From: Thermoleophilum album
GTDB lineage: Bacteria; Actinomycetota; Thermoleophilia; Solirubrobacterales; Thermoleophilaceae
NCBI RefSeq assembly: GCF_028867705.1
Contig: NZ_CP066171.1
Coordinates: 434,001 to 498,000, forward strand
Length of the DNA: 64,000 nt
Reading direction: 5' to 3'
Part shown: positions 3,857 through 7,353 of the stretch, piece after piece
Position numbering within the stretch: the stretch's first letter is position 1
How the letters are laid out: every line of letters starts with the position of its first letter
Notes under the pieces: model-generated
Seen by the model: only the letters and a program-made list of their open reading frames with translations
Told to the model about the DNA's origin: nothing
Databases searched by the model: none
Position numbers and translations under genes: made by a program

Positions 3857-4792
3857 TCACTCGCTCGCGCTGGCGAGACCGAGAACCGCTAGCCGGCGCT
3901 CGAGCGCCTTCCCCGACACGTCGAACAGCGCGCAGAGGTCGGCGAACAGGCTGGGCGACTCGCTCGTTCGCAGCCGCTCGTAGTGGTGGCGCAGAAGCTC
4001 GGCCGGCATCAGCAACGCGGCCGCGAACGCGTTCGCCTCGTGTTCGCGCTGCGGATGAAGCTCGCCGCCGCCCCCACCGCCAGTGTCAGGGTGCGCGGGC
4101 TTGCCGGTAGCCGCGGCAGCAGGGTCGCCGGAAGCGGGGGCTCGGCCGCCCGTGAACGGGGGCGCTGCGTGTCCGTGCGAGCCGGGCGCCAGCTCGGCGA
4201 GCGCTTCGCTGCGGCAGAACACCGGCAAGTGGCGTTCGCGGTGTAGCTCCCAGTGGCCGATCTCGTGGCCGATCGTGAAGCGCCGTCGGGCCGGCCACTG
4301 GAGCGCTTCGTCTCGCGCTACCCAAATCTCGCCGCGATCGGGCAACAGCAGTCCCGATATCCGTTGTCCGCGCAGCTCGCCGGGAAGGCCGGGTGCCGCC
4401 GAGGGGTCAGCGACGTCGCGCACTCGCAGGCACAGAACCGAATCGGCGATGTCCTCCACCGGCACCGGCAGCCGCACGCCGTCCCAGACGAAACCCGGAA
4501 CCGAGTCGAGCAACGCTTGCGCGGCGCGCTCGGCGCGCTCGAAGGCGAAGTGCTGGTCAGCGCTGCGGCTGGCGCTCATCGCTGTGAACGACCGCGGCCA
4601 CCGCCCCGGCGGGACGCTGTGCTCGAACGTGCAGTCGCAGCGCGGGGCGCTGCGCAGAACCTCGTCGATGCGACAGCGCAAGTGCTCGTCTCGGGCGACG
4701 AGCACCGCGAGCTTGCGCACCACGTCGTCGTCGCCGTTGAAGGGGCCGAGGCGTATGAAGAGCTCGGCGAAGTCCACGAACTCGCGTCCCAC
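3857..4792 (-). CDS. ImmA/IrrE-family metallopeptidase
   Basis: A 311-residue zinc peptidase. HEIGH at 176-180 supplies two zinc histidines and the catalytic Glu177; the downstream helix REHEANAFAAALLMP (249-263) is the second signature of the ImmA/IrrE (COG2856) family and supplies the third ligand. A Gly/Pro/Ala-rich insert sits between them (about 203-247). Residues 1-71 precede the usual domain; their codons have the normal very high third-position GC, so this extension appears genuinely coded and the GTG at 4792 is kept over the ATG at 4579. Family members commonly cleave phage or stress repressors or regulators. The gene follows an ECF sigma factor and an HTH protein on the same strand, which suggests it acts on one of them. 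Confidence 0.88.
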   Translation of the reverse strand: MGREFVDFAELFIRLGPFNGDDDVVRKLAVLVARDEHLRCRIDEVLRSAPRCDCTFEHSVPPGRWPRSFTAMSASRSADQHFAFERAERAAQALLDSVPGFVWDGVRLPVPVEDIADSVLCLRVRDVADPSAAPGLPGELRGQRISGLLLPDRGEIWVARDEALQWPARRRFTIGHEIGHWELHRERHLPVFCRSEALAELAPGSHGHAAPPFTGGRAPASGDPAAAATGKPAHPDTGGGGGGELHPQREHEANAFAAALLMPAELLRHHYERLRTSESPSLFADLCALFDVSGKALERRLAVLGLASASE

Positions 4793-4909
4793 GACATCGG
4801 TTACGCCCGGTGGGTCGTTCGAGAAGCGACGGTTCTGACAGCGCGCCCGCGGTCGCGCCCGCGTGACCGCGCTTTCTGGGCTCGGAGGCCGCGTCGCAGC
4901 GCTGGGTGC

Positions 4910-5575
4910 TCACCGTTCGTGGGGCGGATCGCCGAGAAAGAGGCGATCGATTTCGTCGAACTGCTCGCCGTCGTGCTGCCGACCGCCCGGATGTCGCTGC
5001 TCGCGCGGCTCGGTCTCGCCGTCGACGGCGCGGGCGAACACCATCCCAGGTTCGCTCAGCGGCGAGGCGGGTGCCAGCGAGCGTGCCGCCGCACGCAGAT
5101 CGGCGGCTGTCGTCCCCAGCACCCGGGCCAACGCGTCGAGCACCGTGTCGGAGACGCGATCGGCGTCGAGCGTGCCTTGTTCCATCTGGTGGTAGTAGCC
5201 GGCCACTTTCTGCTCGCGGCCTACAGCGCCCAGTCGCGCCGCCAGCTCGTTCGCGACGTCGCGTCGCAGCTTGCGGGCACGCTCGCGCAGCGCCGGTAGC
5301 ACCAGCGGCCACAGCCCCGATCGCCCGCGCAAAGACCGGGCGGCGCGCTCCACCACACGCTCGACGAGTGGATCGGCATCCGCCGGCGGCGGCGTGCGCG
5401 GCGCTTCGGCTAGATAGACGTCGATCAGCGCGAGCACCGCTTCCCGTTCGGCCCCCGTCAGCCCCGCACAGAACTCGTGCGGGTCGGGATCCTCGCCGGC
5501 ATGGAAGGCGGCGACGAAGGCGCGGACGCGCTCGAGCACCCCGTCGACCTGCGAGCTGTCCGATCGCGCTGTCAC
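4910..5575 (-). CDS. helix-turn-helix (XRE-like) regulator, possible partner of the ECF sigma factor
   Basis: A 221-residue soluble protein. Residues about 104-155 (LRRDVANELAARLG ... VAGYYHQMEQG ... VLDALARVLG) follow the pattern of an XRE-type helix-turn-helix domain. The N-terminal 100 residues are helical and acidic, and the C-terminus is polar, ending in DEIDRLFLG. The GTG start overlaps the sigma-factor stop in a GTGA, so both are translated from one message. The position after a sigma gene and before an ImmA/IrrE-type peptidase suggests a regulator of the sigma factor or a repressor removed by the peptidase. No membrane segment or zinc anti-sigma motif is present, so it is not a classical anti-sigma factor. 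The role is inferred from context. Confidence 0.72.
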   Translation of the reverse strand: MTARSDSSQVDGVLERVRAFVAAFHAGEDPDPHEFCAGLTGAEREAVLALIDVYLAEAPRTPPPADADPLVERVVERAARSLRGRSGLWPLVLPALRERARKLRRDVANELAARLGAVGREQKVAGYYHQMEQGTLDADRVSDTVLDALARVLGTTAADLRAAARSLAPASPLSEPGMVFARAVDGETEPREQRHPGGRQHDGEQFDEIDRLFLGDPPHER

Positions 5576-6249
5576 TCGCCCTCGGTTCGTCCGCGAAGAC
5601 TCTGCTGTAACTGTCTGCGAAAGCGCGAACAGATCTGGTAGACGTTGTCCACAGTCATTCCCGGGATTCGAGCGGCCACGCTGGCAGGGGCGTCGCCGCG
5701 GAGCTCGACCGCCACGACGACCGCGCGGTGATGCTCGTTGAGCGCCCGCAGTTCCGCGAAGAGCGTCTCCCGCTCGTGCATGCGATCGGCGAAGCGACCG
5801 TCTTCGCCGGACAGGGTTGCCTCGAAAGCGTCGAGGGGCGTGTCCTGAAGCTGCGCCTCCTGGCGGCGGTAGTGCTGTCGGAAAAAGTCGTCGATCCGAC
5901 GGTCGAGCACGCGGTGTAGCCAGGCGCGAAACGATCCCGGCCTGCTTGCGTCGATCTTGCCCGCGAGCAGGCTGGACGTCGCGTCGCTCAGCGTTTCCTG
6001 GGCAACGTCCTCGGCGTGACAGGCGAGGTCGCCGGCGAGCCGCAGCTGGGCACGCTTCTTGAGGTGCGGAAAGTAGCCGCCGAGCAAGACTTCCAGCGCG
6101 CGCCTTGCCCGCTCCACGTCCCCGGCTGCCTGCGCCTCGCGCACGACCTCGACCAGCTCCTCGTCGCTCAACCGCGCGAGGTCGCGGGACCCGGTCACCG
6201 AGCGCGCGACCGTCGCAGCTGGATCGTCACCGTCGCGCTCGTCGAACAC
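5572..6249 (-). CDS. ECF-type RNA polymerase sigma-70 family factor
   Basis: A 225-residue sigma factor of the extracytoplasmic-function type. The sigma-2 region covers AEDVAQETLSDA and the following helix FRAWLHRVLDRRIDDFFR; after a charged linker, sigma-4 includes ELRALNEHHRAVVVAVELRGD and the recognition-helix region PGMTVDNVYQICSRFRRQL. A GGGAGA lies about nine bases before the GTG at 6249, so that start is chosen. The open frame reaches a GTG at 6306, but the extra 19 residues are Pro-rich. It is first in a three-gene unit with the HTH protein and the metallopeptidase. Its target promoters are unknown. Confidence 0.87.
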   Translation of the reverse strand: MFDERDGDDPAATVARSVTGSRDLARLSDEELVEVVREAQAAGDVERARRALEVLLGGYFPHLKKRAQLRLAGDLACHAEDVAQETLSDATSSLLAGKIDASRPGSFRAWLHRVLDRRIDDFFRQHYRRQEAQLQDTPLDAFEATLSGEDGRFADRMHERETLFAELRALNEHHRAVVVAVELRGDAPASVAARIPGMTVDNVYQICSRFRRQLQQSLRGRTEGE

Positions 6250-6327
6250 GGCAGCGATTCTCCCGCATCCGACGGTCGGAGGCGAGGGCGGCGCCGGAAA
6301 ACGCACCGCTTGGGCCGCCCTGCCGCC

Positions 6328-7353
6328 TCAGTGCGGCTTGCCCGAGCCCAGTCGTAGAGCGAACGCGTCGGACACGGCAGGTCGGCGGCGCAGGATTCCG
6401 AACCGCTCGGCGAACCGTGCCCAGCCGACGAGCGCCGCGCGCGGTACGCGCAAGTCGTCCGCGAACACCGGCAGCACCGCCTGGAGCTGGGCCGCGACGA
6501 GCGCGCGCTCGCCGCCGCCCGCGCGTACGATCAGGTCGACAGCGCGTTGCGGCCGGCGCCGGACGCTGTCGATGCCGGCGGCGATCGCTGCCAAGGTGCG
6601 TTCGATCGCAGCCCGCCGGCGAGCGAGCTGGGTGCGCGTGGTGACCAGCACGACTTCCGGGAAGCGCGGCGCGCCGAAGCGATCGAGCCGGAACTCGCGC
6701 ACGCGCGCGCCGCGCAAGCGCAGCGCCACGCCCTCGGCGTTCCAGAACACCGGTGCAGCGTCGATCCGTCCGGCGAGGAGGCTGCGCACCGCTGCGAACC
6801 CGACGGTCACGTAGCGGATGCGGCGCGGGTCGCCGCCATCGCCCTCGACGATCGCTCGCACCACAGCCGGGTCGGACGGCAAACCCGAGACACCGACGCG
6901 CCGTCCTACGAGATCGCGCGGTCGCGTCACCTCGGCACGCGTGACGAGCGCGGCGAGCGGTACGCGCACGAGTGCCCCGACAGCGACCACGTCGAGCCCC
7001 CGTTCGCGCGCGAGGCCGAGGTCCTGGATGTCGAGGACGCCGAGCTGCACCCGATTGGCTTCGAGCAGTTTCAGCGAGTCGGGTGCGGAGCCGGGGGCGC
7101 GGATCGCCAGGCGGACACCGTGGCTGCGATCGAGACCGTCCTCGCGAGCCATGAAGAGCGGGGCGTGCACGGCGTTGGGCGTGAAGTCGAGGGCGAGCGC
7201 GACGCGTTCGGGGGTTCGCGTGTCCTCGCCGCCACCGCAGCCGGCCAGCGCAGCTAGTGCAGCCAGCGTGGCCAGCACGAGCGCAAGGGTGGACGAGCGT
7301 GTGCGAGTAGACGGGCGTGCGAGGCTGGCGGGCCGCAACCGGTGCGATTTCAC
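6328..7353 (-). CDS. NMT1/THI5-like ABC-transporter substrate-binding lipoprotein
   Basis: A 341-residue exported lipoprotein. Its signal peptide ends in a lipobox (LAALAGC, lipid-modified Cys39). The mature part opens with VALALDFTPNAVHAPLFMA, characteristic of NMT1/THI5-like binding proteins (ThiY, SsuA, TauA relatives) that capture pyrimidine precursors, sulfonates or similar small molecules. The DFTPN form is closest to ThiY-like proteins, but the ligand is not certain. No permease or ATPase gene accompanies it here. It starts 11 bases after the stop of the SCP2/hydrolase fusion gene and is followed by the sigma factor gene on the same strand. Confidence 0.82.
   Translation of the reverse strand: MKSHRLRPASLARPSTRTRSSTLALVLATLAALAALAGCGGGEDTRTPERVALALDFTPNAVHAPLFMAREDGLDRSHGVRLAIRAPGSAPDSLKLLEANRVQLGVLDIQDLGLARERGLDVVAVGALVRVPLAALVTRAEVTRPRDLVGRRVGVSGLPSDPAVVRAIVEGDGGDPRRIRYVTVGFAAVRSLLAGRIDAAPVFWNAEGVALRLRGARVREFRLDRFGAPRFPEVVLVTTRTQLARRRAAIERTLAAIAAGIDSVRRRPQRAVDLIVRAGGGERALVAAQLQAVLPVFADDLRVPRAALVGWARFAERFGILRRRPAVSDAFALRLGSGKPH

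Follow-up and report, generated by a model that had tools for sequence, protein, structure and literature searches.

The subject of this analysis is a unit of three genes within a 64,000-nucleotide stretch of the Thermoleophilum album genome (RefSeq assembly GCF_028867705.1, contig NZ_CP066171.1, positions 434,001 to 498,000), to which we refer as the window. The unit encodes a sigma factor of the extracytoplasmic function (ECF) type, a helix-turn-helix (HTH) protein, and a metallopeptidase of family M78:

6306-5572, minus strand: ECF-type sigma factor gene (244 amino acids as annotated)
5575-4910, minus strand: HTH protein gene (221 amino acids)
4792-3857, minus strand: M78 (ImmA/IrrE family) metallopeptidase gene (311 amino acids)

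The three open reading frames (ORFs) lie at the positions and on the shared strand given in the original prediction, including the GTGA at 5575-5572 that is common to the sigma and HTH reading frames. The sigma ORF falls within the ECF family by TIGR02937 (sigma70-ECF, 44.0 bits; cut-off, 42.9) and matches Pfam Sigma70_r2 (PF04542, 26.2 bits; cut-off, 24), while the peptidase ORF matches PF06114 with 49.1 bits. The genome itself is a single 2.1-Mb contig in which the peptidase has one match, and the closest named relative, Bacterium HR41 (isolate HRbin41), shows 89 to 93% identity across the three proteins.

Conservation of the three-gene cassette

Relatives of the HTH protein were sought by profile after a protein-based scan of contigs had given one close relative only. 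A search with the HTH protein found matches in 48 of 199 genomes of the class, and the alignment A1 (43 rows), used as a profile, matched in 115 of 399, 11 of these being weak and of a generic XRE type. In the window's own family, the HTH gene is carried by 12 of the 31 genomes. Across a sample of the phylum, 24 of 396 genomes had a match; 8 were weak, mostly generic XRE domains, and of the 16 strong ones a single match (G273) lay outside the class.

Because the 110 loci that we collected (the window included, with some genomes contributing several) were selected by the HTH gene, the locus counts express how often the sigma and M78 genes accompany it. In 107 of the 110, a sigma gene precedes the HTH gene on the same strand, in 103 of them no more than 200 bases from the HTH domain, and the commonest overlaps between the two genes are 4 and 8 bases. 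An M78 gene occurs within 1.5 kb in 97 of the 103 loci that are not truncated by a contig end. It is downstream on the same strand in 67 loci (one of which, L127, is a partial match of 32.7 bits) and convergent in 30; 6 loci have none within 1.5 kb and 7 end at a contig edge. Chance grouping of the three genes is excluded by this conservation, and loss of the gene order in relatives, which the original prediction had named as grounds for abandoning its proposal, did not materialize. Twenty of the 30 convergent M78 genes score low and were taken to represent a different M78 subfamily (e.g., at L046, L050, L132, and L167), which suggests that the protease has been exchanged there with its function kept. 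Clustering of the neighbors of 42 loci revealed no cluster clear of the cassette in more than 8.

Some loci deviate in their details. Partial or broken additional copies of cassette genes near the cassette at L053 (G009) and L063 (G025) point to duplication and decay. At L101 (G151) and L108 (G580), another, partial sigma-like frame immediately precedes the sigma gene. At L126 (G739), where no M78 gene is nearby, a DUF6361 gene with a motif of its own, of the kind described below, directly follows the HTH gene in the place of the peptidase.

A promoter-like motif and its candidate targets

For motif counts, 88 of the 110 loci were used, 11 being excluded for want of 300 upstream bases or a usable sigma match and 11 as near-copies. 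Upstream of the sigma genes, TGTCAG was the top enriched 6-mer and TGTCAGA the top 7-mer, the latter present in 28 of the 88 de-duplicated regions against 0.9 expected. TGTCAG followed 16 to 17 bases on by CGAC occurs in 31 of them (reverse strand, 1; shuffled mean, 0.13) and the wider form YGTMAG-N16..18-YGAC in 53 (reverse strand, 5; shuffled mean, 0.76). This arrangement has the form of an ECF promoter, since it resembles the experimentally shown promoter of ECF41, TGTCACA-n16-CGTC, described in passages of PMC3426412; an ECF-like bipartite promoter thus precedes the cassette's own operon in these relatives. Over 99 sigma upstream regions, 38 have the TGTCAG type and 20 the YGTAAG type. Among the 25 same-strand loci whose gap before the peptidase domain is 60 bases or longer, 10 likewise carry the wider motif there (reverse strand, 0; shuffled mean, 0.14). 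This is also its position in the window:

4840-4814, minus strand: TGTCAGA-N16-CGAC promoter-like motif, between the HTH and M78 genes

It is the sole exact copy of TGTCAGA-N16-CGAC within the 64 kb.

Having first been found at sigma genes, the motif was then searched for elsewhere in the genomes. TGTCAGA-N16/17-CGAC occurs at 73 sites in 21 cassette genomes (reversed pattern, 10), 14 of them at sigma genes; as these genomes were selected mostly for a motif at the sigma gene, the figure that we use is the 59 sites away from sigma genes. With the sigma sites removed, cassette genomes exceed 21 genomes of the same order, which have 16 sites and are cassette-less by profile search (G081 may hold a missed cassette), with a Mann-Whitney p of 1e-5. 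When a start codon was required 7 to 11 bases on, 116 sites were found in 47 cassette genomes (reversed, 7) and 26 in 34 other genomes (reversed, 7). Among 58 non-sigma sites that had not been selected by start codon, 12 are followed at 8 to 10 bases by a plausible ORF start, compared with 2.4% of random positions (p 1e-8), and with sigma genes included the count is 18 of 69. A simple rule based on ORFs and GC content at third codon positions was used to call gene starts, and the p values are indicative, because related genomes are not independent. In a larger set of 88 sites, without sigma genes or cassette-less genomes but mostly selected by start codon, 62 have a start within 60 bases, and in 29 of the 62 it lies exactly 9 bases downstream, which suggests that the sites stand ahead of leaderless transcripts. 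A pooled set of 112 sites, in which sigma genes and 10 loci of cassette-less genomes are also counted, gave 76 sites with a start and 32 at distance 9; those 10 loci, themselves start-selected, show five plausible starts within 60 bases (four at 7 to 10 and one at 23). In family f7, the variant CGTAAGA-N17-YGAC with a start codon occurs at 21 sites in 10 of 11 genomes (reversed, 0), 8 of the 21 at sigma genes.

A comparison of 67 non-redundant candidate promoters, those of sigma genes included, showed no conserved element besides the -35 and -10 elements and the start codon, with a mean information outside the 27-base motif of 0.07 bits; up to 4 of the 67 may be from cassette-less genomes, and operators that differ between lineages could escape such a pooled comparison.

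Of the 91 listed target proteins, 30, chosen by eye, were scanned against Pfam, with any further names given by eye from sequence likeness. A PADLOC scan covered the three cassette proteins and five candidate target proteins. The assignments by profile hidden Markov model (HMM) and PADLOC are as follows:

L250, L305: SbcD, HMM-confirmed motif target
L294 (633 bits), L276 (as a fragment): RecC, HMM-confirmed
L248: RmuC, HMM-confirmed
L237: TM0106 RecB-like nuclease-helicase, HMM-confirmed
L231, L328: HD/OB nuclease like YhaM, by HMM (L231 under the YhaM equivalog cut-off)
L306, L185: AddB N-domain, by HMM (L185 under the cut-off)
L240: HsdM, HMM-confirmed
L315: Cas3g, 620.8 bits against 400
L235 (family f3), L365 (family f7): ARPP-1, HMM-confirmed
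L228: SNF2 helicase of defence type, PADLOC HmaA 1154 bits (DrmD under the cut-off)

Inspection by eye placed YhaM-like genes behind sites in nine genomes from three families and SbcD behind sites in four genomes from two, and additional small protein families recur behind sites. Judged from sequence, a theme of double-strand-break repair and defence seems clear to us among the named candidate targets. One of the recurrent families, whose members begin with MW(L/I)xTxxGFxS(V/I)V, stands behind the motif in five genomes (L050, L201, L304, L209, and L236); the single member scanned had no Pfam match. The T. album genome was sampled as 400 kb plus the window. At 1605422-1605396 (minus strand) is a TGTCAGG copy; the ATG of an AddB-like ORF follows 83 bases downstream, the product of this ORF shows 36% identity to its AddB-like counterpart from L306, and a second exactly matching place is found upstream of an unnamed ORF.

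The start of the sigma gene in T. album may differ from that annotated. Comparison of the upstream sequences of L032 and L033 makes a GTG at 6249, giving 225 amino acids, a plausible alternative. Directly ahead of it, at 6257-6262 (minus strand), is a GAGAATCGC block that is also present in the congener L033 and may be a housekeeping-type leaderless promoter. Further upstream, a gene for an NMT1/THI5-like substrate-binding protein (6328-7353, minus strand) stops 21 bases ahead of the annotated sigma start, and since its end is so near, it is possible that transcription from it runs into the sigma gene in this genome.

The XRE-fold protein and the peptidase

The HTH protein of the window matched no Pfam HTH model at cut-off (best, 12.6 bits), and a Pfam search at an E value of 0.1 gave no match, to an anti-sigma domain or any other. 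Its features were taken from a predicted model (pLDDT, 83.5) and from alignments:

residues 4-82: helical N-domain, predicted model
5078-5323, minus strand: XRE/Cro-fold domain, residues 85-166, structure comparison of the predicted model
5030-5041, minus strand: linker motif VFAR (hydrophobic-x-R), residues 179-182, alignment A1
4937-4957, minus strand: C-terminal motif DEIDRLF, residues 207-213, alignment A1 and C-termini

In the model, the middle domain is an XRE/Cro fold of five helices at 89-165. VIA-align matched it to SinR 3qq6 (Z 9.0; root mean square deviation, 1.8; 66 residues aligned), CapH 7t5u (Z 8.6), and DdrO 6rnz (Z 7.9); the aligner's own notes rate a Z of 8 to 9 as modest, and the rows listed were mostly of this fold. 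For the N-terminal domain, a structure library search gave a best Z of 5.5 and nothing clear, with no anti-sigma domain among the rows. The XRE domain is followed by a low-confidence linker and then by one short C-terminal helix at 208-214. Over the 43 rows of A1, R182 of the linker motif is nearly invariant and F213 of the C-terminal motif invariant, and a motif of the type hydrophobic-acidic-x-L-F is present in 100 of 104 complete C-termini. The protein is acidic, with a mean net charge of -11.4 over the same rows, and its XRE domain is near neutral (+0.4). A difference seen by eye between FAR and FR in the linker, as a mark of same-strand versus other M78 subfamily, was dropped because phylogeny may explain it and exceptions exist.

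For the peptidase, the following features were mapped:

4253-4267, minus strand: HEIGH catalytic motif, residues 176-180
4031-4045, minus strand: EHEAN motif, residues 250-254, from alignment
4580-4792, minus strand: N-terminal extension, in the window, L032, and L033 only

The original prediction had named E177 as the residue to mutate, and this is the correct catalytic residue, because HEIGH occupies residues 176-180. EHEAN presumably holds the third zinc ligand. The closest PADLOC match of the protein is CapP (70.7 bits). As to its start, HR41, a near relative, has GCG in place of the GTG at 4792, and the next in-frame GTG stands at the equivalent of 4777. The N-terminal extension of 66 to 71 residues, similar in the congener L033, was not found beyond the genus of the window. 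Hence, the earlier suggestion that it senses the signal is not favored: a general sensor is unlikely to be restricted to one genus when the peptidase core spans the class. Possibly, the extension tunes the response.

A putative DNA damage switch and its alternatives

We read the cassette as a cytoplasmic stress switch that acts through an ECF sigma factor, which would transcribe genes for DNA-break repair and genome defence, a reading to which we give about an even chance. By analogy, the best reading is a DNA damage response of the IrrE/DdrO or CapP/CapH kind in which a sigma factor provides the output. In unstressed cells, the XRE-fold protein, made together with the sigma factor from overlapping genes, would bind it and keep it inactive. 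Upon DNA damage, the M78 peptidase would become active, probably via single-stranded DNA or released zinc as for PprI/IrrE and CapP; single-stranded DNA has been reported to activate PprI and CapP (PMC10904395, in part) and zinc to activate IrrE (PMC7907104, in part). The peptidase might then cleave the XRE-fold protein, perhaps within its flexible tail. The positions of the sites suggest that the freed sigma factor would read TGTCAGA-N16-CGAC promoters, or CGTAAGA-N17-YGAC in family f7. Sites ahead of the sigma or peptidase gene would provide positive feedback, and those ahead of sbcD, recC, addB-like, rmuC, YhaM-like nuclease, and defence genes would lead to transcription of these genes. For the scheme in full, that is, cleavage of a soluble XRE-fold anti-sigma factor by an M78 peptidase that responds to DNA or zinc, after which the ECF sigma factor, and not a regulon freed from a repressor, drives double-strand-break repair and phage defence with positive feedback, we would go somewhat short of an even chance.

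The original prediction had the soluble HTH protein restrain either the sigma factor or its promoters until the peptidase destroys it. With the gene order kept, restraint and removal are still the best reading, in which binding and cleavage are our inference. Between the two modes, binding to the sigma factor is favored and repression of promoters less so, because the 67 promoters showed no second conserved element, the protein is acidic, and the genes overlap. It is rather unlikely, in our estimate, that the protein acts as a DdrO-like repressor of the sigma operon that does not contact the sigma factor, with M78 cleavage derepressing the sigma gene. Such a role would fit a domain whose fold is near those of SinR, CapH, and DdrO, and in the published M78 pairs described in passages of PMC7907104 and PMC10904395, the XRE partner is a repressor; moreover, some lineages, the genus of the window included, have no sigma-type promoter ahead of the sigma gene. 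It fits less well with the absence of a second conserved element from the candidate promoters, those of sigma genes among them, with an XRE domain that is close to neutral within an acidic protein and central rather than N-terminal, and with the prevalence of 4- or 8-base overlaps with the sigma gene.

Conceivably, a different regulator of the DNA damage response, such as a WYL activator of the PafBC kind, reads the TGTCAG-type promoters, while the sigma factor and the XRE/M78 pair are still linked to each other. The PafBC motif also contains TGTCAG, and its DNA repair theme overlaps that of the candidate targets. Some sites, too, occur in genomes in which no cassette was detected, and the genus of the window has the cassette with no clear excess of sites. 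We nevertheless consider this improbable, as the sites are several-fold commoner with the cassette and are present at the cassette itself, the spacing of 16 to 17 bases to CGAC and the preferred distance to a start codon are like those of ECF promoters, and CGTAAGA, the f7 variant, does not resemble the PafBC motif. We regard it as very improbable, finally, that the XRE/M78 pair forms the core of a toxin-antitoxin or mobile-element control module, with the sigma factor and the link to DNA repair being incidental. Xre-COG2856 pairs have been proposed as toxin-antitoxin-like modules (in passages of PMC2701414), but the more constant neighbor here is the sigma gene, no neighbor cluster clear of the cassette reaches more than 8 of 42 loci, and the peptidase gene is single copy in its own genome.

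Several observations weigh against the proposed switch. XRE-fold proteins are normally DNA-binding repressors. Foldseek at an E value of 0.001 gave no match for the HTH model or its N-domain, and therefore no anti-sigma fold was recognized for the protein. The C-terminal motif need not be a protease site, since 4 of the 5 complete loci that have no nearby M78 gene retain it. Neither promoter type was found in 41 of the 99 sigma upstream regions, that of the window among them. The 21 cassette-less genomes of the same order hold 16 sites (reversed, 5), and in families f5 and f11 the f7 variant gave zero sites over 9 genomes. Many of the target ORFs belong to no named family. In the genus of the window, there is no clear genome-wide excess of the motif, because a search that allowed one mismatch and required a start codon 9 bases on gave 10 places in T. 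album itself (reversed control, 5), 4 in another genome of the species (reversed control, 7), and 5 in a congener (reversed control, 3).

Relation to known systems

One of the nearest known counterparts is the IrrE (PprI)/DdrO system of Deinococcus, which, like the cassette, combines an M78 peptidase and an XRE-fold partner with DNA repair targets, and the response of which is independent of SOS (passages of PMC7907104 and PMC10904395). The cassette shares with such pairs a HEXXH M78 peptidase and an adjacent XRE-fold partner. It differs in that an ECF sigma factor, with a promoter motif of ECF type, would be its output and that no second conserved element is seen in its candidate target promoters. 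Its partner protein also departs from the domain order of DdrO: whereas DdrO has an N-terminal XRE domain and a C-terminal dimerization domain, the cassette protein has a helical N-domain, a central XRE domain, and a C-terminal motif. The CapP/CapH pair of the cyclic oligonucleotide-based antiphage signaling system (CBASS) supplies the best PADLOC match of the peptidase, and CapH ranks second among the structural matches for the XRE domain. In passages of PMC10904395, CapH and DdrO are both partners of M78 peptidases, and cleavage of CapH by CapP is activated by single-stranded DNA. CapH represses a defence operon, in contrast to the cassette with its fixed upstream sigma gene.

On the side of the sigma factors, the ECF41 promoter has nearly the form and spacing of the cassette motif, but ECF41, according to passages of PMC3426412, has a large C-terminal extension and controls genes for a decarboxylase, oxidoreductase, or epimerase. 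Soluble anti-sigma factors of ECF sigma factors are likewise small, lack a membrane anchor, and are encoded by a gene that overlaps that of their sigma factor; the cassette protein differs from them in its XRE fold, in having no recognized anti-sigma domain, and in its neighboring M78 peptidase. In the open-licence literature searched, we found no description of an ECF sigma factor combined with an XRE/M78 pair, and the published passages that contain both "extracytoplasmic function" and "IrrE" draw no link between them. What seems new by that search is the combination of sigma factor, XRE-fold protein, and M78 peptidase, whereas the IrrE/DdrO and CapP/CapH pairs and the pairs of ECF sigma and anti-sigma factors are known.

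The bipartite promoter motif and the DNA repair targets go beyond what the original prediction could see. If our reading is true, the cassette would be a sigma factor version of the Deinococcus radiation response, joining ECF sigma factors under the control of anti-sigma proteolysis with the M78-run, SOS-independent responses to DNA damage, two fields that are usually handled separately. It would also raise the question of how an XRE repressor fold came to restrain a sigma factor. Repair and antiphage genes would share one regulon, and a little-studied class of bacteria would gain a predicted DNA damage regulon with a simple, testable promoter.

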